In this document: piece after piece, positions 50,381 through 63,207 of the stretch
Numbering within the stretch: position 1 is the stretch's first letter
How the letters are laid out: the number at the start of each line of letters is the position of its first letter
NCBI GenBank assembly: GCA_014730275.1
Contig: WJIL01000061.1
Coordinates: 1 to 64,000 of the forward strand
Source of the DNA: Candidatus Lokiarchaeota archaeon
GTDB lineage: Archaea > Asgardarchaeota > Thorarchaeia > Thorarchaeales > Thorarchaeaceae
Length of the DNA stretch: 64,000 nucleotides
Direction of reading: 5' to 3'
The notes under the pieces: generated by a model
Databases searched by the model: none
What the model was told of the DNA's origin: nothing
What the model saw: the letters and a program-made list of their open reading frames with translations, nothing else
Made by a program: the position numbers and the translations under genes

Positions 50381-52204
50381 ATGAAGAGGGATAAACTAAC
50401 GATTTGTGTCATTTCTTTGCTCTTGGTGGGGGTCATACCGCTTTCTGTATTTGCCAACTCCAATACGACGAACTCTATCAAGAACGGTTTGTTTCTAGAC
50501 AAGATCATGTTTCACCACTTGAACGGAGAAGAAGCTATTCAGGCGCTTTTGGATGATGAAATTCAGCTCATAGGATATATGATTGACCCTACGCTTATGC
50601 CTGAATTAGAACAATCTGAAGGGATTGAGATTTCAGAAACTCTGAGAAATGGCTATGGATACATAACCATTAACTGCCGCAAATATCCGTTCAACATTAC
50701 CGCGTTCAGAAGGGCTCTTGCGTTCGCAATCGACAAAGAAGCCATCTGTGAGGATGTTTGGGTTGGCAAAGCCGAGCCACTTGATAGCCTTGTCCCAAAA
50801 ATCAATCCCTTCTCTATCGAAGAAGATCTCACATATCACTACTATTCTGCTAATGTCACAAAAGGGAATGAACTCCTTGACGCTGCTGGTTTCAATGACA
50901 TCGATGAGGACAAATACAGAGAAGCTCCAAATGGTGATTCCTTTAATGTCATAGTAGAAGTAGCTGAATCATCCGAAATTGCGATCGGAGTTGGTTCAAT
51001 CGTAGAAGAAGCTCTTCAATCTCTTGGAATCAACGGAACTTCAAAACCAACCGATTTCTATGAGTATTTGAACAAGCTATACTTTCACCATCAAGATTAT
51101 GACATTGCGTTTATGGGCGAATCTTTCTCTGATTTCAGTGTTGACTGGCTTGCTGATATACCTTGGCCGCAGTATGCTGGCGACAGCTGTCATTTCCCTC
51201 ACTTTACGAATGCAAGTTATGATTCTTGGAAAGACCAGTTGCTTCACAATACGACACTGGAAGGTGTGAAAGAGGCGGCCAGAGAGATGCAGGAAGTCTG
51301 GGTCTATCAGAGCCCAGAGATTATCTGCTATGAAACATATGAATACTCTGCTTACAGAAACGATAGGTTCGTAGGATTTGTAAATCAAGTCGATAGGGGG
51401 GTATTCTCATTCTGGACAAGCCTACAGACACATCTAAGAGAAGAACAAGGGGGCCCTTACGGAGGTACACTCCATAGGAGCTTCCCCCTAGATGTGGGAA
51501 CTTTCAACGTGTTTCAACAGCATTGCTACGGCGTTGAGCAGTACTATGAACTTCTCTACGATAGCTTGTTGCGTGAAGGACCAGATGGATATTTCATCCC
51601 ATGGCTTGCTGAATCATATTGCATTGAAACACATGAAGATAACGAGGAAGTACAACCAGGATATACAAGATTCACCTTCAATCTAGTTCAAAATGCGACT
51701 TGGACAGATGGTTCACCGCTTACCGCGGAAGATGTATCGTTCTCATTCAACTTTTTCAGAGATACAGTAGGCAATCGGTTTAGGTACGGACTGGAGGAAA
51801 TGAAAGCAGCCTTTGCGAAAACAGCGAATACCTTTGTCATTGAATTCAATACTACCTCATACTGGCATCTTCATAATATAGGAACAAAGCCTATCATCCC
51901 CAAGCAGGTGTACAATCAACTAGATCCAGGTGAATGGAATTCATACAATTTGAGTCCTCCAGAAGATGAGATGATAACTTCAGGGCCATATAATGTGTCA
52001 GACCGCCTTGATGACCATTACACGGAATTTAGCCGAAATCCGAATTACTTCTATCAATACAATGATGGTATATCAACACCTCAGACGACACCACCTCAGT
52101 TCATAGTAATCAACCCATTAGCAGTAGGAGTGCTAGTAACTGCTGTTGCGGGTATCGTTGGAGGTTCTGTAATGTGGATACGGGAGATACGATCCATGAG
52201 GTGA
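50381..52204 (+). CDS. Circularly permuted family-5 solute-binding protein, copy 1
   Basis: This is a 607-residue secreted protein: signal peptide (about residues 1-26) and a C-terminal membrane anchor (576-600) with a basic tail. Between them it is built from the two halves of the DppA/OppA fold in reversed order. Residues 38-340 match the second half of DppA (EAIQALLDDEIQ, FRRALAFAIDK at 109-119, LLDAAGF). Residues 357-558 match its first half (GGPYGGTLHRS, LLYDSLLREGPDG, WTDGSPLTAEDV at 441-452, TSGPYNVS, NPNYFY). It probably binds peptides or sugars at the cell surface. It is first in the array and has a short leader. Confidence 0.85.
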   Translation: MKRDKLTICVISLLLVGVIPLSVFANSNTTNSIKNGLFLDKIMFHHLNGEEAIQALLDDEIQLIGYMIDPTLMPELEQSEGIEISETLRNGYGYITINCRKYPFNITAFRRALAFAIDKEAICEDVWVGKAEPLDSLVPKINPFSIEEDLTYHYYSANVTKGNELLDAAGFNDIDEDKYREAPNGDSFNVIVEVAESSEIAIGVGSIVEEALQSLGINGTSKPTDFYEYLNKLYFHHQDYDIAFMGESFSDFSVDWLADIPWPQYAGDSCHFPHFTNASYDSWKDQLLHNTTLEGVKEAAREMQEVWVYQSPEIICYETYEYSAYRNDRFVGFVNQVDRGVFSFWTSLQTHLREEQGGPYGGTLHRSFPLDVGTFNVFQQHCYGVEQYYELLYDSLLREGPDGYFIPWLAESYCIETHEDNEEVQPGYTRFTFNLVQNATWTDGSPLTAEDVSFSFNFFRDTVGNRFRYGLEEMKAAFAKTANTFVIEFNTTSYWHLHNIGTKPIIPKQVYNQLDPGEWNSYNLSPPEDEMITSGPYNVSDRLDDHYTEFSRNPNYFYQYNDGISTPQTTPPQFIVINPLAVGVLVTAVAGIVGGSVMWIREIRSMR

Positions 52205-52374
52205 TGCTAATGCCCCATCTCCCAGATTGTCTTTTGTGCACAAAATGAGACTGAATCATTGTTCGCGGCCGATGTTCGACACTTTGCCGAAGACTAGAAG
52301 CCATACAAGGAATGTGTAGGTCCTAACAAAACAACAACAATAAGATATCTTCGTATTAATAGGAGGTGTCTTCG

Positions 52375-52725
52375 GTGTTTCTGATGGGATGGAAAGGAAT
52401 ACTGGTTGGATTCTGTTTGCTGTTGATAGCAATAGTCCCGTTTCTTGCTTTTCCTCAAATTCATGGCACAGAAATCACAAGAGGGGGGCCGTTCAATATC
52501 TCATCCTATGAGTTCGGCGAATGCATTGAACTAAGACGTAATTCAAATTACTTCTATCACTACTCTACTTGGGAGCCAACAAACATAACTACGAATCCTC
52601 TCGTTCCAATTCTTACTCCTTGGGCCGTGGGAATCGTAACTGCAATTGTAGTTAGCATTTCAGGGCATGCATACTCTGGGTACTGCGCACGAAAACAGGG
52701 GAGGAAGGGGAGTGAGAAACCGTAA
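52375..52725 (+). CDS. Miniature derivative of the permuted binding protein
   Basis: This 116-residue frame keeps the two ends of the array proteins. It has a signal peptide (MFLMGWKGILVGFCLLLIAI and following), then immediately GGPFNISSYEFGECIELRRN, the NYFYHYS element and a C-terminal membrane helix with a basic tail. Roughly 480 central codons are missing, and the frame is intact across the junction. The GTG at 52375 follows GGAGGTG at good spacing. Its last 14 bases overlap the start of the next copy. It may be a non-functional relic or a small membrane protein. Confidence 0.65.
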   Translation: MFLMGWKGILVGFCLLLIAIVPFLAFPQIHGTEITRGGPFNISSYEFGECIELRRNSNYFYHYSTWEPTNITTNPLVPILTPWAVGIVTAIVVSISGHAYSGYCARKQGRKGSEKP

Positions 52726-54556
52726 GAAGAGATTCTTGGGTATTCTATGCATCATTTGCATTGGAGTAATACCGCTATTTGCGAGTTCTCAGACCCATGT
52801 AGCAAACACCAGTCAAAACGGCCCATTCCTGAACCAGATCGTTTTCCATGACATGCATATGGGAGAAGGAATTCAAGCATTGTTAGACGATGAAATACAG
52901 CTTATCGATGAGTCCATCGATAATACGGCTTCAGCTGAATTAGGAGAATCAGAGCATATAGAAACCGCAGAAATACTCAGAAATGGATATGGCTATCTGA
53001 GTATTAATTGTCGACGTTATCCTTTCAATCTAAGCTCCTTCAGAAGAGCCTTCGCATACGCATTAGACAAACAGAAAATATGCGATGAAATCTGGGGAGG
53101 ATTCGCATATCCCCACGATAGCGTGGTTCCAAGGATCAATCCTTTTTCGATTGAAAACGAACTGAGAAATCACTATTACAATGGCAACATAACACTGGCT
53201 AACAGAACACTTGATTCTGGAGGATTTGCTGATATCAACAATGATGGATACCGAGAGGCGCCCAATGGTGAAAGCTTCGAAGTAGATGTTGATATGGGGA
53301 CCTGGTCAGCTATTGCTATCGAAATCTGTGAGATTGCAGCACAAACTCTCCGAAGCATGGGTATCAAAGCAGTTCATGAGCCACCTGAATACTATGAATA
53401 CTGGGGAAGAATACCTTACAATTATGATATCGTTTTCCTCGCTGTTTCATTCAATGATTTCACCCTCGATTGGCTTGGATATGAGTACTGGTCCGAATAC
53501 GCAGACGAAACCTACTGGAACTACCCCAAATTCGTAAATGCATCTTATGATTCGTGGATAGACCAACTATTGCACGCAGTAGAATACGAAAAGGTCTATG
53601 AAGCGGCTACGAATATGCAGGAGATTCTGCTTGAGCAGTGTCCAGTGGTCGTTTGTTATGAAAGTTTCAATGTTGCAGCGTACAGAAACGATAGATTCGG
53701 TGGCTTTGTAAATGATGTAGCCCATGGGCCGTCGAATTTTTGGTCGAGTCTGAAAATTCACCTTAGAGATGAGAGGGGGGGTCTGTTCGGGGGAACCCTG
53801 CATTGGAGTGACTTTCTTATAGTTAGATACCTTCGAAAGCCCCATTCTTGTTCGGACATCTACTATCAAGTATCCGACATATTCGATTTCCTATACGATA
53901 GTCTGCTTCGTCAAGGACCAGATGGTAATCTTGTATGTTGGCTTGCTAAGTCATACACCATTCAGACCCATGCGGATAACGAAGCTGTTCCAGTAGGACA
54001 TACCAGATTCACGTTTGAAGTAAGTAAGAATGTGACTTGGACAGACGGGAAGCGACTTACCGCACATGACGTAGTATTCACATTCAATTATTTCCGACGA
54101 GTGATGCCATGGTATGTATCCTCACTCAGGAATATGAATTCGATCTATGCCAAGACTGACTACACGCTCGTTCTTGAGTTTGAAACCGAGTCTTATTGGC
54201 ATCTTCATTCTATTGCATCTAAGCCAATTATTCCAAGACACATTTTCAGACAGCTGGATCCGGAGGAGTCAGAAAGCTGTGCCATTTCTCTATCGTCAGA
54301 TAATGTAACATCAGGACCGTTCAGCATATCGAATAATGAATTAGGAAACAAGGTGGAGCTGACTCGCAATCCACATTACTTCAAAAGATACATCCCGCCT
54401 GAAATGGATGAACCAACCACAACAACCGGTGGAAAATGGAACGCAATTGATGTCTTATCACCCTTTGTACTGAGTGCATCCATGATTATTTTCGTCGGGA
54501 CAACCGCAATATGTCTTGGAGATAGAAAAGAAGAAAATCACAGTCTCCGTCATTAG
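52712..54556 (+). CDS. Circularly permuted family-5 solute-binding protein, copy 2
   Basis: This is a 614-residue paralogue with signal peptide (FLGILCIICIGVIPLF) and C-terminal anchor (FVLSASMIIFVGTTAIC). It has the same reversed order: EGIQALLDDEIQLID and FRRAFAYALDKQK first, then GGLFGGTLHWSDFLI, FLYDSLLRQGPDG, WTDGKRLTAHDVVFTF and NPHYFKRY. AHDV replaces AEDV in the lobe-I motif. The GTG at 52712 follows GGAGGAAGGGGA, just inside the end of the mini-gene. Confidence 0.85.
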   Translation: MRNRKKRFLGILCIICIGVIPLFASSQTHVANTSQNGPFLNQIVFHDMHMGEGIQALLDDEIQLIDESIDNTASAELGESEHIETAEILRNGYGYLSINCRRYPFNLSSFRRAFAYALDKQKICDEIWGGFAYPHDSVVPRINPFSIENELRNHYYNGNITLANRTLDSGGFADINNDGYREAPNGESFEVDVDMGTWSAIAIEICEIAAQTLRSMGIKAVHEPPEYYEYWGRIPYNYDIVFLAVSFNDFTLDWLGYEYWSEYADETYWNYPKFVNASYDSWIDQLLHAVEYEKVYEAATNMQEILLEQCPVVVCYESFNVAAYRNDRFGGFVNDVAHGPSNFWSSLKIHLRDERGGLFGGTLHWSDFLIVRYLRKPHSCSDIYYQVSDIFDFLYDSLLRQGPDGNLVCWLAKSYTIQTHADNEAVPVGHTRFTFEVSKNVTWTDGKRLTAHDVVFTFNYFRRVMPWYVSSLRNMNSIYAKTDYTLVLEFETESYWHLHSIASKPIIPRHIFRQLDPEESESCAISLSSDNVTSGPFSISNNELGNKVELTRNPHYFKRYIPPEMDEPTTTTGGKWNAIDVLSPFVLSASMIIFVGTTAICLGDRKEENHSLRH

Positions 54557-54670
54557 AATAGGGGGCATTGGGTAGATATAGAAATTAGAACTAGCAGTAT
54601 TTGTGTATCAAGATACCACACAAGAAATAATACTCCATTGACGAATACATGTCTACGGTGATGAGTTTCC

Positions 54671-56494
54671 ATGAAGAGGGACATGGTGGCGATTTGTCTC
54701 GTTTCTGTACTTCTGCTAGCAACCATACCTCTGGGTATGCCTTCAACAGTCAATGCAACAAATGTAACTAGGAATGCCTTATTCCTAGACAAGATCGTAC
54801 TGGATTCGATATATGGAGAGGAGGCCATTCAGGCGCTTCTAGATGATGAAATCCAAGCTATCGATGATACTATACAGTGGCAGTATTTGGATGAACTATC
54901 CGAAGCCGAAAGCATCCGCATAGCTGAAATACCTCGGAACGGATATGGATACTTGTGCATCAACTGCCAGAAATATCCACTCAATCTTACTGCCTTTAGA
55001 AGGGCATTTTCTTTTGCGATAGATAAAGAAAGAATGTGCGATGAAACATGGGAAGGACATGCCTATCCACAGGACAGTGTGGTTCCAAGAAAGAGTCCAT
55101 GGTCAATTGAAGAAGATTTGCCGTATCACTACTATGAATCAGAGATTTCCCGTGCCAATCAAATACTGGATCATGCAGGCTTCGATGACATCGATGGCGA
55201 TTCATTCAGAGAGGCACCAAATGGAGAAGTCTTCAATGTGACCATAGAAACACCCGATTCAGCCTCATTTGCCATGGAAATCGGTGAGATTGCAGAACAA
55301 GCATTGCGTACAATCGGAATCAACGCAATATTCGTGCCTACTGAGTTTTATGATTATTTGAACAGGCTCTATTTTCATGGAGATTATGATATGGTTTTCA
55401 CTGGACGGACCTTTTCCGATTTCGACTTAGATTGGCTCGCCTACGAGTACTGGTCGGAATACGCGGACAAACCTTACTACAACTTTCCAAACTTTCAGAA
55501 TGACACCTATGATTCCTGGAGAGATCAGCTACTTCATGCAACAGAATATGACAAAGTGTACGAAGCTGCCAGAGAAATGCAAAAGATACTATTCTATCAG
55601 TGTCCTATTGTTCCCTGCTATTCGAATTTCGAAATCTCAGCTTACCGAAATGATAGATTTGAGGGTTTTGTGAACGATGTCAGTGAGGGGCCTATAAGCT
55701 TCTGGACAAGCCTACAAGTACATCTAAGAGAAGACCAAGGTGGGCCATTCGGTGGCACACTCCACCGAAGCTTTCCATTAGCTATTGGATCTTTCAACAT
55801 ATTTAAACAATGCTGCTATGGTGTAGAGCAGTTCTATACTCTATTCTACGATAGTTTGATGCGACGAGGACCTGATGGAAAGACCGTTCCTTGGCTTGCT
55901 GAATCGTATATAGTCGAAACACATGATGATAATGACTATATTTCACCGGAACACGTTCGATTTACCTTTGATTTGATTCAAAATGCAACATGGACTGATG
56001 GAAAACCAATTACAGCAGAGGATGTAGCATTCTCATTCAACTACTACGGCAATACGGTAGGCAATCCATTTCGACGGGGTTTAGAAGGCATGATCGCATC
56101 TTATGTAGAAGGCAACGACAAATTTGTAATCGAGTTCAATACGACTTCTTACTGGCACCTGCATACTATCGGATACAAGCCTATCATCCCAAAGCATGTA
56201 TTCAAGAATATCACTGGCACGGACTATCAACACTACTACTCAGTTCCTCCAGAAGAGGAAATGGTAACATCCGGACCATACAACGTATCAGCTCTGGAGA
56301 ATCGATATGTGGAGTTCAGTCGCAACCCAAATTACTTCTATCGATACACACCAAGCAATGCAAACGAAACGACATCAGAGAACCCCATTGCTTCATTCTT
56401 TAGCCCCTTGATGACAGGCGTGTCTGTAGCCTGCACAGTCATATTCGTAGGCACGGGTGTTCTCGAGATAAAAGAGGCTCGAGACAGGAACTAG
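54671..56494 (+). CDS. Circularly permuted family-5 solute-binding protein, copy 3
   Basis: This 607-residue protein is closest to copy 1 (same length, opening MKRDMVAICLVSVLLL). The reversed halves are intact: EAIQALLDDEIQAID, LTAFRRAFSFAIDKER, then GGPFGGTLHRSFPLAIGSFN, FYDSLMRRGPDG, WTDGKPITAEDVAFSF and NPNYFYRY. The last part (VSVACTVIFVGTGVLEIKE) is the membrane anchor. It ends before the convergent radical-SAM gene. Confidence 0.85.
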   Translation: MKRDMVAICLVSVLLLATIPLGMPSTVNATNVTRNALFLDKIVLDSIYGEEAIQALLDDEIQAIDDTIQWQYLDELSEAESIRIAEIPRNGYGYLCINCQKYPLNLTAFRRAFSFAIDKERMCDETWEGHAYPQDSVVPRKSPWSIEEDLPYHYYESEISRANQILDHAGFDDIDGDSFREAPNGEVFNVTIETPDSASFAMEIGEIAEQALRTIGINAIFVPTEFYDYLNRLYFHGDYDMVFTGRTFSDFDLDWLAYEYWSEYADKPYYNFPNFQNDTYDSWRDQLLHATEYDKVYEAAREMQKILFYQCPIVPCYSNFEISAYRNDRFEGFVNDVSEGPISFWTSLQVHLREDQGGPFGGTLHRSFPLAIGSFNIFKQCCYGVEQFYTLFYDSLMRRGPDGKTVPWLAESYIVETHDDNDYISPEHVRFTFDLIQNATWTDGKPITAEDVAFSFNYYGNTVGNPFRRGLEGMIASYVEGNDKFVIEFNTTSYWHLHTIGYKPIIPKHVFKNITGTDYQHYYSVPPEEEMVTSGPYNVSALENRYVEFSRNPNYFYRYTPSNANETTSENPIASFFSPLMTGVSVACTVIFVGTGVLEIKEARDRN

Positions 56495-56562
56495 CTACAC
56501 AGCCAAATCAGTCATTGAAGTAGCTTGACTGAAGCTACTCCGAGAATTTCCCGTCACTTACC

Positions 56563-58131
56563 TCATGATTCTAAGTAGCTACTTTCTACTTCTTCGCGAT
56601 GAATCGTGTTGTAGGTACAGAAGGGGATTATTCGTCCATCAGGTGTCGAGTAGTTGATGCTGCAGTGTTGAACACGCTCCAAATCCAAATTGAAAGGATC
56701 TTGAAAATGCATCATCCCAATCATGATGACGCGATGCATGAAAGCTGCGAGCGAATCGTAATCACCCTTGTTGAGAAACGCCTCAATGATTGGGCGCATG
56801 AAGGTCTTCTTCTTGATGTGCCTCAAGAAGCCCATGAGTTTGAATTTCGATCTGATACCGGCCAAGCGTTTTCTATCGACATAGAGATTGCAAACATCCT
56901 CCAGAACCTCTAGCAATTTCTCGATATCGAGGATTTCCGTTATTGGATAGTAATTGCCGTTCTTGTCAAAGAGCAGAAAAGTGGCCATGCCGCATGCGAA
57001 GTGCGAGTGCAGTTCAACCGTCGGTTCGCCTTTCATCAGCCCAAGAGCCCTTCCAACGTTCATCATCGCAGGAACCGGGTACCAGTCCTCTGTCGTAATC
57101 CGGTTATCCGTCTGTTCTTCTATCCTCTTGATAGCATCTGGTATTGTGATTCGCATCTCTTTCCGCTTCTCATAGTCGATTCTTCCTGTTATACTGACAG
57201 GCTGGAAGTTAATACAGCGAACAATATCGCGGTTATCTATGGCGTAGTTAACTATGTCACCGATTTCTTGGTCATTAACGCCTTTGACGATGGTTGGCAC
57301 AAGTACCACTCCGTCAAGACCGATTTCTCGGCAATTATCAAGCACCTTGTCTTTTACATTTCGAATGTCCCTACCGCGAGCAAGTTCGTATGGCTTAGCT
57401 GTCACACCATCAAATTGGAGATAGATCGTATTGAGACCTGCATCCATAAGCGATTGAAGATATGAAGAATCTCCAGCCATCTTCAAACCATTAGTTGCAA
57501 TCATGATGTGATTATATCCAAGTTGCTTAGCCCATTGGACGTATTTCAAAAGATGGGGGCTGACTGTTGGTTCACCTCCTGCAAATTGAATACCAGGGCA
57601 GGGAACTGGAAGATTACGTCTCAAATTACGAAGCATCTCAAGGATTTCAGACGGCTTCGGCTCAACCACTCTTCCGGACTCCGCAGCATTGGCAAAGCAG
57701 ATTGGACATCTCATGTTGCACCGATTTGTTACGTCAATAAGACCGAGTGCTGTGTGAGCACAATGATTTGGACACTGGCCGCAGTCCAACGGACATCCCT
57801 CTACAGTCTCTGTTCGCGGGTTATCAAGGCCAACTGTCTTGTACCAGTACTGCATAGACCGCCTAAACATGTCTGCATCGGACCAATAGATATCTTGGAA
57901 TGAACCGTGAATATCACATTCCTTTTTCATGAGAATTTTCGAATCCTCTTCGTACACGGTCGCGTCAATGACATTAACTCGATGATCATCAAGCCAGCAT
58001 GCAGGACATATAGACTTGGTTGAATATGGTAGAGTTCTTGCTTCGTATTTTTCGGGTCTGTATCGCTCAATTGTTGGTATATTGTGATGAAGCTCCCCAG
58101 CAGGTATGCGTCCAATTTCTTCATTGCCCAA
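56563..58131 (-). CDS. Radical-SAM protein resembling tetraether lipid synthase (Tes)
   Basis: This 522-residue radical-SAM enzyme carries its [4Fe-4S] motif CNMRCPICF at residues 138-146. Additional cysteines lie upstream (ICPACW at 41-46, KECDIHG, and GCPLDCGQCPNHC at 112-124) and near the C-terminus (ACGMATFLLF, FCTYN). This arrangement matches the COG1964/Tes family, whose member MJ0619 joins archaeal lipid tails to make tetraethers. The start is TTG at 58131. It lies on the opposite strand inside the binding-protein array. A related peptide- or lipid-modifying activity cannot be excluded. Confidence 0.72.
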   Translation of the reverse strand: MGNEEIGRIPAGELHHNIPTIERYRPEKYEARTLPYSTKSICPACWLDDHRVNVIDATVYEEDSKILMKKECDIHGSFQDIYWSDADMFRRSMQYWYKTVGLDNPRTETVEGCPLDCGQCPNHCAHTALGLIDVTNRCNMRCPICFANAAESGRVVEPKPSEILEMLRNLRRNLPVPCPGIQFAGGEPTVSPHLLKYVQWAKQLGYNHIMIATNGLKMAGDSSYLQSLMDAGLNTIYLQFDGVTAKPYELARGRDIRNVKDKVLDNCREIGLDGVVLVPTIVKGVNDQEIGDIVNYAIDNRDIVRCINFQPVSITGRIDYEKRKEMRITIPDAIKRIEEQTDNRITTEDWYPVPAMMNVGRALGLMKGEPTVELHSHFACGMATFLLFDKNGNYYPITEILDIEKLLEVLEDVCNLYVDRKRLAGIRSKFKLMGFLRHIKKKTFMRPIIEAFLNKGDYDSLAAFMHRVIMIGMMHFQDPFNLDLERVQHCSINYSTPDGRIIPFCTYNTIHREEVESSYLES

Positions 58132-58471
58132 GCATCTTCACATCCAGTATACGGAATGGAAAGTTGCAATTTAGACTGGAATGATTCAACTTAAAGCTTT
58201 CAGAATGCTAAGCATGACGCATTTTTGAATTTCAGAAGGACATACGCATAAACTTTGAACATGCATACTGGATAGATTTTCCCGTCACGGAACTCGACAA
58301 TTGGAAAGTGTTTCGGCCAGGTGCAGTAGATGACTCACTCGGGAAGTGTAGCGGACACCATCCTCGAAAACATGTTGTGGTTTATGAACTCGGTACAAGA
58401 TCGAGGAATAGCTGATGGTAGATTTATTAAACTCAAGAGACAATTTGGAGAAGTACTAAGGTGGGTGCACC
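58132..58471. other. Gene-free stretch between radical-SAM gene and copy 4
   Basis: This 340-base divergent region carries the promoters of the radical-SAM gene and of binding-protein copy 4. A TTTATTAAA element at about 58423-58431 lies 40-48 bases before the copy-4 ATG and is a likely TATA box. I saw no open frame of note and no RNA gene. Confidence 0.5.
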
Positions 58472-60574
58472 ATGGCCGATGTTAGCAGACCTGTGTTTGT
58501 TGGCATATTCTTGGTTTTGGGGCTTATTTTTCCTTCATACAGTCAAGTAGCAGGTTTGAGCACTATTCCACCACGAAATGCTTCTAATACCAATAGAGAT
58601 AGATTTGGCCCCTACGTTGATAGTGTTAGGTACGAAGTTATTTCGCAGGAGGATCAGGCTGTTCGGGCTCTGCAGGATGGCGATATCGACCTGATTGGAG
58701 ATCAAGTGGATCCCTCATTCGTAGCGGAATTGCAGGATGCAGATAACATTGAGATAGCTGAGACTCTGAGAAACGGCAATGGGTATCTCACTATTAACTG
58801 TCGGAAATACCCTTTCAATATCACCGCATTCAGGAGAGCACTAGCTTACGCTTTAGATAAGCAAGCCATTTCAGATAACCTCTGGGAGGGGTTTGCATAT
58901 CCACTCGATAGCTGTGTGCCCCGGAATAATCCCTTTTCTGCTGAAGAACACCTCGCGTATCATTATTACGAAAGAAATTACGAGACTGGGAACCAGCTTC
59001 TTGACACAGCAGGCTTCTACGATTCTGATAATGACAGCATCAGAGAAGCGCCAAATGGTGAGGATTTCGACGTATTGATAGAAGTTGCTTGCTCTTCAGA
59101 TATAGCAATAGAAACCGGTGAGATGGTTGCTAATGCCCTTCGGAATCTCTCAATAGATGCGGTCAGCGGATATGGGTGGAATATACTGAATAGGCTATAT
59201 TATCACGGTGATTACGATATAATATTCATTGAACAGTCTTTCACCGACTTTGATGTCGATTGGCTTGGCTACGAATACTGGTCAGAGTATTCCGACCAAC
59301 CATTCTACAATTATCCAAACTTCGAGAATTTGACCTATGATTCTTGGCGGAATCAGTTGCTTCATTCAACAGACCATGAAGAAGTCTATGAAGCAGCAAT
59401 AGAAATGCAGAAGGTCTTAGCTTATCAATGTCCAATTATCGTCTGTTACCAAAATATCGAGTTCTCAGCTCATAGAACAGACCGCTTTGAAGGATTCAAG
59501 AATGATATTGTAGAGGGCGTTCCAAGATATTGGACCAACTACAAAGTTCACCTGAAGGACTCAGAAGGTGGCCCATTCGGAGGAACCCTTACCCGTAGCA
59601 TTCCCCTCGATGTTGATACATTCAATTTCATGGTCAGCTCCTCTGCTTATACCTATGATGTTCTTGATATGATGCACGACAGTCTGATCAAACCTCATTG
59701 GAATGGCCAAGATATCAAATGGCTGGCTGATGACTATCAAATAGAAACTCACGATGATAACCCAAGCGTTACGGAAGGTCATACTCGAATCACATTTGAC
59801 CTGCTTTCCAATATCACTTGGAGTGACGGAGAAAGCCTGACAGCCGAAGACGTGGCCTTTACCATGTTTTTTTACCAAGAATCCCCGGGTAATCCTCTTG
59901 GAAGGGATCTTCGAAATATGACTGGTGCTTTTGCACTATCAAGAAACAGAGTAGCCATCGAATTCAACACTGAATCCTACTGGCACTTACATTCCGTGGG
60001 CTACAAACCAATAATTCCCCAACATGTATTCTCAACTATGGATTCTGACAAATGGATGGATTGGAATCCGAATCCACCCAATGAAGCTATGGTTACTTCA
60101 GGCCCATTCAATATCACTGAATACGAACCTAATGAATACTGCACAATGACCTACAATCCTAATTACTTCTTCAATGCGCGTTGTTTCGGACCGTCAATTA
60201 CTCATCCCGAGGATGTCCATTGTGATGTGTTTCATTCACCAGTATCAATCACATGGCATCTAGCCGACATTGATCCCAAGGAGTATCGCTTTATTGTTGA
60301 TAATACAGTGCAGCGAATAGAGTCATGGGAATCCCAGAATCAAACAGTCACATTTTCAATTGAGGTACTTCTGCCGGGCATCCACAATGTAACCATAATA
60401 GCTGTTGATTCCATGGGTAATCAATGCAGTGATATTGTCTTCATCTATGTAGAAGGGCCCGTAGCTACACTCCTAATCATCGCTGGCGTCGGAATCCTTG
60501 GTATTTGCATAGTCATAGTGCTTCGAGTTGCATATCAAGAAATTCGAGAAATCTCTAATTCCGAAGTCACTTGA
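58472..60574 (+). CDS. Circularly permuted solute-binding protein with Ig-like domain, copy 4
   Basis: This is a 700-residue protein. The signal peptide is FVGIFLVLGLIFPSYSQVAG. The permuted core includes AVRALQDGDIDLIGDQVDPS, AFRRALAYALDKQAI, then GGPFGGTLTRSIPLDVDTFN, MMHDSLIK, WSDGESLTAEDVAFTM and NPNYFFNAR. After the core, about 85 residues form an Ig-like beta domain (ITWHLADIDPKEYRFIVDN to DSMGNQCSDIVFIYVEG). It is followed by a membrane helix (ATLLIIAGVGILGICIVIVL) and a cytoplasmic tail. The Ig-like domain separates binding core and membrane, as in other archaeal surface proteins. Confidence 0.85.
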   Translation: MADVSRPVFVGIFLVLGLIFPSYSQVAGLSTIPPRNASNTNRDRFGPYVDSVRYEVISQEDQAVRALQDGDIDLIGDQVDPSFVAELQDADNIEIAETLRNGNGYLTINCRKYPFNITAFRRALAYALDKQAISDNLWEGFAYPLDSCVPRNNPFSAEEHLAYHYYERNYETGNQLLDTAGFYDSDNDSIREAPNGEDFDVLIEVACSSDIAIETGEMVANALRNLSIDAVSGYGWNILNRLYYHGDYDIIFIEQSFTDFDVDWLGYEYWSEYSDQPFYNYPNFENLTYDSWRNQLLHSTDHEEVYEAAIEMQKVLAYQCPIIVCYQNIEFSAHRTDRFEGFKNDIVEGVPRYWTNYKVHLKDSEGGPFGGTLTRSIPLDVDTFNFMVSSSAYTYDVLDMMHDSLIKPHWNGQDIKWLADDYQIETHDDNPSVTEGHTRITFDLLSNITWSDGESLTAEDVAFTMFFYQESPGNPLGRDLRNMTGAFALSRNRVAIEFNTESYWHLHSVGYKPIIPQHVFSTMDSDKWMDWNPNPPNEAMVTSGPFNITEYEPNEYCTMTYNPNYFFNARCFGPSITHPEDVHCDVFHSPVSITWHLADIDPKEYRFIVDNTVQRIESWESQNQTVTFSIEVLLPGIHNVTIIAVDSMGNQCSDIVFIYVEGPVATLLIIAGVGILGICIVIVLRVAYQEIREISNSEVT

Positions 60575-60763
60575 TGGATACTGAAATACACTGTAATTTG
60601 CAAAGGGTATGCAAGTATCTTGTTTTCGAAGACTTGGCTCAGTCAAACATAACAAGGCATCTACTGCGGAGTTGAAAGCGAATTCGGAATGTGATGCTGT
60701 TTTTCTAGCCAAACTTTTGATAATCTGGTTTTTCGTTATCTAAGGGTAATCAGGAAGGATATC

Positions 60764-61027
60764 ATGACTTTTCGAAGAGCTTTAGCTCGTGCAATTAGTA
60801 AATGGGAGATTGTTAACCAAGTCTTTGATGAGTTAGCTAACCCGCTAGATAGCTGTGTACCTAAAAATAATCCAGTTTCAGTCGAAAGTGAGTTATGGTA
60901 CCATTACTATAACGCAAATATCGCACAATCAAATGAGATGCTGGATACAGCTGGTTTCTTAAATGTTGATGGTGATAATCTCAGCATCATTTTGAAGTGT
61001 AATCAAGGACACAAAAAGATTGTATAA
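60764..61027 (+). pseudogene. Decayed remnant of a permuted binding-protein gene
   Basis: This 87-codon frame matches only the FRRAL region of the array proteins (TFRRALARAISKWEIVNQVF, NPLDSCVPKNNPVSVE, YHYYNANIAQSNEMLDTAGF), then loses similarity and stops. Weak similarity continues upstream of the ATG to about 60740 (RVIRKDIMTF against INCRKYPFNITAF). Signal peptide, second half and anchor are missing. It is best read as the relic of one array copy. Confidence 0.75.
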
Positions 61028-61062
61028 TATGAGGGATATTTTATTCCGGGAGGTCGGCCACA

Positions 61063-63207
61063 ATCAACAAAGGAATACTTCTTCTAGTTGGGGCGATAAT
61101 TTCTCTCTCTCCATTCTTGATATCTCTCAGTCTGGACGACCGGACCACGATTTCTCCAACCGAACTGGCATTTCCAAATAATCAGGAAAAGAGTGGTCCA
61201 TTTGTTGAAGAAATTGTCTATGATTTCACCCACAGTGACACTGAAAGCATAGTCGCTTTGCAAGATGGCGAAATCGACATGATAGGAGATATGATAGATC
61301 CAACATTTGTGGCCGAACTAACAGATGCAGAAGACATAGAGCTGAGGATTAGTCCGGGAAATGGTTACGGGTATATAGTCATCAACTGCCGGAAATACCC
61401 CTTGAATATAACTGCCTTTAGAAGAGCGTTAGCTTACGCTCTAGACAAGCACGCTATTTGTGCGGAAGTGTGGGATGGGCTCGCTCAACCTCTGGATTGT
61501 TGTATTCCGGAGATTAATCCTTTCTCTGCCGAAGATGAATTATCATACCATTACTACCAAGGAAAGGTCGAGCTTGGTAACCAGATACTGGATGAAGCCG
61601 GTTTTCATGATATTGACAATGACACCTTTAGAGAAGCACCGAATACAGAGGATTTCGAAGTACTTGTTGAAGCTTCTGATTCATCATCAATTTCTGCTGA
61701 TACAGTTACTTTAGTTGCATCTGCTCTTCAGGACTTAGCAGTGAATGCAACATCCTCATCAACATGGTATAACTTGCCTTCCCCGTACTGGAAAGACGAT
61801 TATGACATTGTATTTCTAAACGAAATGTTCGATGATTTTGATGTTGACTGGCTTGCCCATGAGTACTGGTCAGAATACGCTGATGAACCGTACTGGAATT
61901 CCCCGGGCTTCAAGAATGCCACATATGATTCTTGGCGAAACCAACTGCTTCACTCGCCAAGTCACCGAGAAGTTCTTGAAGCGGCCATCGAAATGCAGAA
62001 GATTCTGGCCTATCAGTCTCCGATTATCGTTTGCTATCAAGCCCTCCAAGTCTCAGCTCATAGGACGGACCGCTTTGAAGGCTTCAAGAAGGACCCCATA
62101 GAGGGCGTTCATGGATTTTGGACAAATTATAAGATTCGTCTAAGGAAAAACCAAGGCGGACCATTTGGAGGAGCATTTACCTGGAGTAATTCGCTGGATC
62201 CTGATACATTCAATTTCATGGTCACTTCTTCCTCGTATACAATGGATATCCTCGATATGCTATATGATAGTCTGATTACGCGTGACTGGGAAGGCGAAGA
62301 CATAGGATGGTTAGCAGAAGAATACCGTATCGAGATGCATGGCGATAATCCAAGCGTTCCTGTTGGATATACACGAATCACATTCGACTTGATCTCCAAC
62401 GCTTCTTGGAGCGATGGAGAGAAACTGACAGCAGAAGATGTGGCATTCACATTGAACTACTACCAGCAATCGCCTGGAAACCCTCTAGCTATGGATCTTA
62501 AGAATATGACCGCCGCTTTTGCAAAGACGGAAAAAAGCGTGGTTGTGGAATTCAATACTGAATCCTACTGGCACCTACATTCCGTAGGCTACAAACCAAT
62601 AATTCCTCAACATATATTCTCAGAAATCGGTCTCAATGGTTGGAATACATGGGACCCCATGCCACCTGAAGAGGCTATGGTCACGTCAGGTCCGTTCAAT
62701 GTCTCGGATTATTCCCCGGGCGAGTATTGTACAATCGGTCAGAACCCGAACTACTTCTACAGTGCTCGAGACATGGGGCCATCAATTAGTCAGCCTGAGG
62801 ATGTCCATTGTGATGTGTTTCATTCACCAGTATCAATCACATGGCATCTAGCGGACATTGATCCCTATGAGTATCAAATCATGTTTGACGGGAGAGTAGT
62901 GAAATCAGAAGATTGGACATCCCCAAACTACTCACTGACCTTCCCGATTGGCAATCTAGCCCCGGGGTGTCATAATCTTACCATCGTCGCATCTGACTCA
63001 ATTGGAAATCTAAATAGTGATACAGTTTTCATCTTCGTTGAAGGACCCATAGCAACAATCTTGACTGTTACAAGCATCGGAATCATCGGGGTATGCATAG
63101 CCATCGTCATTAGATTCGCGTATCAAGAAATGCAGGAGAACACCTCCCTCAACCGAAAACAAGAGCTTAGAAATCGTACAATCTTGCTCCTCATGCATCA
63201 GTCTTAA
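61063..63207 (+). CDS. Circularly permuted solute-binding protein with Ig-like domain, copy 5
   Basis: This is a 714-residue protein if it starts at the ATC at 61063. That codon lies nine bases after GGGAGGT and opens a good signal peptide (NKGILLLVGAIISLSPFLIS). No ATG, GTG or TTG occurs in frame between the upstream stop and the TTG at 61117, which would cut into the signal peptide. The core is permuted as in the other copies (FRRALAYALDKHAI; WSDGEKLTAEDVAFTL; NPNYFYSAR). It has the Ig-like domain (ITWHLADIDPYEYQIMFDG onward) and an anchor (IGIIGVCIAIVIRFAYQEM). Function depends on a non-standard start or TTG initiation. Confidence 0.75.
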   Translation: MNKGILLLVGAIISLSPFLISLSLDDRTTISPTELAFPNNQEKSGPFVEEIVYDFTHSDTESIVALQDGEIDMIGDMIDPTFVAELTDAEDIELRISPGNGYGYIVINCRKYPLNITAFRRALAYALDKHAICAEVWDGLAQPLDCCIPEINPFSAEDELSYHYYQGKVELGNQILDEAGFHDIDNDTFREAPNTEDFEVLVEASDSSSISADTVTLVASALQDLAVNATSSSTWYNLPSPYWKDDYDIVFLNEMFDDFDVDWLAHEYWSEYADEPYWNSPGFKNATYDSWRNQLLHSPSHREVLEAAIEMQKILAYQSPIIVCYQALQVSAHRTDRFEGFKKDPIEGVHGFWTNYKIRLRKNQGGPFGGAFTWSNSLDPDTFNFMVTSSSYTMDILDMLYDSLITRDWEGEDIGWLAEEYRIEMHGDNPSVPVGYTRITFDLISNASWSDGEKLTAEDVAFTLNYYQQSPGNPLAMDLKNMTAAFAKTEKSVVVEFNTESYWHLHSVGYKPIIPQHIFSEIGLNGWNTWDPMPPEEAMVTSGPFNVSDYSPGEYCTIGQNPNYFYSARDMGPSISQPEDVHCDVFHSPVSITWHLADIDPYEYQIMFDGRVVKSEDWTSPNYSLTFPIGNLAPGCHNLTIVASDSIGNLNSDTVFIFVEGPIATILTVTSIGIIGVCIAIVIRFAYQEMQENTSLNRKQELRNRTILLLMHQS

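Follow-up and report, generated by a model that had tools for sequence, protein, structure and literature searches.

Circular permutation of family 5 solute-binding proteins in a Thorarchaeota gene array, with further permuted forms in other Asgard archaea

Among solute-binding proteins (SBPs), natural circular permutation has been described for TpMglB-2 (Tp0684) of Treponema, a glucose-binding protein of 'Type Ic / cluster Bc', and its authors, as we do below, relate the permutation to membrane tethering (PMC4990184). It is the only natural SBP permutation that we found described in the open-licence papers, to which our search was restricted, and it concerns a different SBP class (PMC4990184); no permuted SBP of family 5 (the DppA/OppA class, Pfam profile PF00496, SBP_bac_5) was found in the same literature. 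The canonical family 5 domain was divided here into three parts, S1 (profile positions ~1-143), S2 (~146-284), and S3 (~285-end). We analyzed a 64,000-nucleotide stretch of DNA, referred to as the window, whose Asgard source was upheld, and examined five SBP genes in which the sequence-only reading had seen a reversed order of the conserved blocks.

The five genes stand head-to-tail on the plus strand, and all have the order S2-S3-S1, preceded by a hydrophobic N-terminus and followed by a hydrophobic anchor at the C-terminus. Copy 1 (50381..52204, 607 aa; PF00496 E-value 1.4e-49 in two stretches of reversed order) starts with the canonical second part, S2+S3 (50486..51439, profile ~148-end), continues with the canonical first part, S1 (51449..52051, profile ~3-141), and ends with the anchor (52103..52159, hydropathy 2.37). 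In copy 2 (52667..54556, 629 aa, likely start GTG at 52712), S2+S3 occupies 52820..53767 and S1 53777..54382; in copy 3 (54671..56494, 607 aa), the respective positions are 54779..55729 and 55739..56338. Copy 4 (58472..60574, 700 aa) has S2+S3 at 58607..59557, S1 at 59567..60169, and a short additional domain before the anchor, which by eye resembles the Ig/PKD-like repeats encoded on two other contigs, L033 and L034. It is followed by a decayed remnant of a sixth copy on the same strand (60767..60994), recognized from its translation as an S2 fragment (profile 217-293; 30.1 bits, E-value 3.9e-7). Copy 5 (61063..63207) contains S2+S3 at 61195..62145 and S1 at 62155..62757. All ORFs were supported by PF00496 and their parts were delimited by segment HMMs. 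Five ORFs are thus present as the sequence-only reading had listed them, except that the start it assigned to copy 5 is not a standard one: the codon at 61063, behind a GGAGGT-like motif, is ATC rather than ATG, GTG, or TTG. A leader-like reading frame is present in this region (61030-61130), and the first standard start, TTG at 61117 (ORF 61117-63207), would truncate the signal peptide. Signal peptides and anchors were called from hydropathy alone, and on this basis both were found at the new ends, where they had been proposed. For the three pairs with measurable dS, dN/dS comes to about 0.1, the remaining pairs being saturated; the permuted order of the window copies is conserved and the copies are under purifying selection.

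Each of the five ORFs is matched by PF00496 in two stretches lying in one reading frame, in which the later profile positions precede the earlier ones, with E-values from 5e-39 to 3e-51 and scores of 135-175 bits versus the curated cut-off of 32.4. In a search with whole-genome coordinates, the first stretch in copies 1 to 5 covers profile positions 148-354, 146-362, 148-364, 145-364, and 143-363, and the second 3-141, 5-143, 2-142, 7-150, and 5-141, respectively. A collinear order was not seen in any of the five copies, so that the profile search suggested earlier as a check agrees with the reversed block order. Every rotation of each window protein was then scored against a profile of canonical-order Asgard proteins only. 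The best single match in the native order reaches 110-135 bits and covers part of the model, whereas rotation at the S3/S1 linker yields 163-196 bits over most of the model in all five copies; the score is maximal exactly at this linker and drops on both sides. Two canonical controls, themselves members of the training set of the profile, reach their maximum at zero rotation or no more than a few residues away from it. Together with the dN/dS ratio, the rotation scan places the observed order well outside what chance would produce. The proposed location of the cut, between the NPNYFY strand and the strand starting with LDKIVF, was confirmed.

Structure prediction, the second of the suggested checks, was done for copy 3 (54764-56359) by AlphaFold2 with 52 relatives and gave one compact domain (pLDDT 94.5, pTM 0.93), in which the lowest-confidence stretch within the chain is the linker. 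Foldseek, which needs collinear order, matched TM1223, chitooligosaccharide-binding protein, DppA, and NikA over ~300-335 of 532 residues with TM ~0.4-0.5, and no whole-chain collinear match occurs among the 50 structures listed; matches that are collinear and only partial are expected of a permutant. Two unrelated fused domains can be ruled out, since the halves complement each other within one family and a single full match is regained on rotation. Judged by profile and rotation analysis, the five genes encode natural circular permutants of a family 5 SBP, and the permuted copies are predicted by modelling to keep a single intact two-lobed SBP fold. Annotation with a collinear profile captures such transport proteins merely as a pair of disconnected partial matches.

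The reversed order could in principle be an artefact of ORFs straddling neighbouring canonical genes or of a scrambled assembly, and register errors are conceivable among five head-to-tail genes. We consider this practically untenable, as every window ORF comes with a leader, a stop, an anchor, and an intergenic gap of its own, and the same order is found in isolated single copies with unrelated neighbours (C95, C21, and C6) and in independently assembled MAGs, including high-completeness genomes of a single or few contigs. The isolated and cross-genome copies exclude a register or assembly error. The order of the window copies, hereafter type A (cut at ~143|146), was shared by 106 ORFs at many loci, some of them lone genes, and was observed at 47 loci in related MAGs; of 47 genomes belonging to the same family (Thorarchaeota), at least 39 have full-length type A hits among the matches listed. 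In the sampled Thorarchaeota genomes type A is commoner than the canonical type.

The genome studied here, a Thorarchaeota MAG judging from the nearest named relatives, encodes about 13 family 5 SBPs (the five window copies, C95, C21, C20, C138, C6, C89, C52/C96, and C1), and none of them has the canonical order. C1 (L030:7799-9532), which adjoins dppBCDF, was considered as the remaining canonical SBP and rejected: its own chain is permuted, at a different point, and begins with the S3 part (S3-S1-S2), and thus the genome lacks a canonical-order family 5 SBP. An additional permuted SBP gene, C44 (L036:7104-9040), is split by a frameshift into two ORFs and may be either a decayed gene or an assembly error.

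The proposed survey of other Asgard genomes recovered both permuted and canonical forms. Since it was limited to Asgard genomes, permuted forms elsewhere are not excluded; in a search of plasmids, the best 10 of 704 matching records were each two-piece matches, as expected for the canonical order. Three topologies coexist in other Asgard families: canonical, type A (families f1, f9, f21, and f28), and type B (S3-S1-S2, cut at ~284|289; f17, f23, f15, f14, f16, f21, and f9, in addition to C1). A third cut point at ~327|330 was seen once, in L136:789-2774 (f28) on a 3.2-kb contig. This recurrence at further cut points had not been noticed in the sequence-only reading. With three distinct cut points, no fewer than three permutation events are required, barring a second permutation of an existing permutant. 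Thus, the layout of this fold, assumed to be fixed, has been changed by natural re-cutting of the chain several times, and a single archaeal phylum contains a large SBP family with several permutation points.

On the tree of 93 re-linearised SBPs, type A needs two changes, with a single origin not excluded, and type B needs seven. A single type B clade is rejected by the AU test (p 6e-5); the inferences for both types carry the caveat of long branches. Two canonical-order proteins of f15 (L128 and L129) are nested among type B in this tree, which points to either a reversal or an independent permutation. The type A-associated permeases group in 78% of bootstraps of the DppB tree (moderate support), and their nearest neighbour is the permease of L137, whose SBP is canonical and C-terminally anchored; type A is grouped in both the SBP and DppB trees, with L137 as its nearest canonical relative in both. 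The position of this permease suggests, without proving it, that anchoring preceded permutation. The origin of the permuted genes by tandem duplication and new gene boundaries, as proposed initially, is plausible; no intermediate of the S1-S2-S3-S1 type was seen among 175 ORFs.

In the dereplicated set, hydropathy detected a C-terminal anchor in all 76 complete permuted proteins (53/53 of type A and 23/23 of type B) and in 7 of 14 canonical ones. This makes relocation of the tether a reasonable, unproven driver, and we infer only tentatively, at slightly less than even confidence, that the permutation is retained because the membrane tether moves to another face of the fold. The independent-pairs test had too few pairs, and the association of anchor and permutation is not phylogenetically independent. 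The permutation may instead be selectively neutral, having arisen by unequal recombination in arrays with new gene boundaries, at equal function and without relation to anchoring. This remains a serious possibility to which we lean no further than tether relocation: tandem arrays and decayed copies exist, several cut points occur within the same family, and some canonical proteins do have C-terminal anchors, whereas no permuted protein out of 76 lacks the anchor that half of the canonical ones lack, and type A outnumbers the canonical form in the sampled Thorarchaeota, with no canonical-order SBP in this genome. Relocation of the tether also enters a broader proposition, on which we are evenly divided, that permutation of the same SBP fold recurred in Asgard archaea, with three or more cut points and probably more than three events, and that entire lineages exchanged the canonical for the permuted form because the C-terminal membrane tether changes its place relative to the importer with every permutation. 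If this proposition holds, the family would be a naturally occurring set of circular permutants on which selection acts. Proteins of the canonical, type A, and type B forms can all be compared, together with their importers, making it testable why natural proteins permute and whether anchoring drives it.

Taken as a whole, the window genes are with good confidence interpreted as encoding secreted, permuted family 5 receptors of an Opp/Dpp-type importer, which would be tethered to the membrane at the C-terminus. A short linker, about TSLQVHLREDQGGPFGG, connects the old N- and C-termini; the new termini, where the NPNYFY strand passes to the LDKIVF strand, carry the leader peptide and the membrane anchor. 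The SBPs likely bind extracellular oligopeptides or oligosaccharides for delivery to an ABC importer of the Opp/Dpp type, and the window copies would be orphan receptors that share a transporter encoded elsewhere in the genome. The ligand may be a peptide or an oligosaccharide (oligosaccharides being the ligands of the nearest solved structures), and none of the NCBIfam equivalog cut-offs was reached.

The earlier statement that no ABC permease is adjacent holds for the window array, beside which there is no transporter gene, but not for the permuted type in general, which occurs in dppB/dppC operons in this genome and in other Thorarchaeota. Thirteen sampled type A ORFs lie less than 4 kb from dppB/dppC, a number in which a few genes are counted twice. 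In this genome, the C52/C96 SBP gene follows dppC-dppB-dppB, with divergent dppD-dppF; it is split across two contigs with an exact 141-base overlap, a join that could in principle be confused by the similar C138 gene. The SBP-dpp order was found on single contigs elsewhere (L042/L138, L047, L051, L055, and L079). The DppC of one type A-linked transporter (L039:3401-4918) has ~260 extra residues without a Pfam match between the first TM helix and the permease core, and DppCs of other type A operons are similarly long.

Of the two functional options offered initially, surface receptors or partners of a distant transporter, the operons favor the latter. Free-standing surface proteins, acting as sensors, as adhesins, or as the parts of surface proteases that present the substrate, would explain an array without an adjacent transporter, the excess of SBPs over permeases, and the fusion of relatives to subtilase and Ig/PKD-like repeats in several Thorarchaeota. 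We find this role unlikely for the window copies, given the operonic association with dppB/dppC across several genomes and the grouping of type A, with L137 as nearest canonical relative, in both trees. Moreover, one importer can be served by several SBPs in bacteria, for example by the OppA paralogues of Borrelia. The genome has two Opp-type permease sets for ~13 family 5 SBPs, and orphan receptors with a common importer are therefore the best interpretation of the window copies. Among the fused relatives, C20 (L033:5873-13414) is a 2513-aa protein composed of a permuted SBP, an S8 subtilase (PF00082, E-value 9.6e-35), Ig/PKD-like repeats, and a C-terminal anchor; the SBP-subtilase architecture is also present in three further Thorarchaeota genomes (L178, L179, and L180). 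Protease or Ig-like tails on some relatives could indicate roles other than import. These assignments bear on peptide and sugar feeding of Thorarchaeota, relatives of the ancestor of eukaryotes.

TpMglB-2 shares with the window SBPs its natural circular permutation, and it sits beside an ABC importer; it differs in having the Class I/cluster B sugar-binding fold with one cut inside the N lobe, and in being lipid-tethered and bacterial (PMC4990184). There is no homology between them in family or cut site, and the window SBPs are not of cluster B (MglB-like), as all fold and sequence matches listed belong to family 5/cluster C. The nearest solved relatives by both sequence and fold are the mannobiose-binding TM1223 of T. 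maritima and the chitooligosaccharide-binding protein of Vibrio, which differ in their canonical order, ~20% identity, and soluble, bacterial nature. With canonical family 5/cluster C proteins (DppA, OppA, NikA; PF00496), the window copies share homology along practically the entire chain after rotation, and DppBCDF-type importer operons of the kind that house the canonical proteins also house the permuted type in several genomes; the window copies are distinguished by the reverse order of the halves and by a leader and an anchor placed on the new termini.
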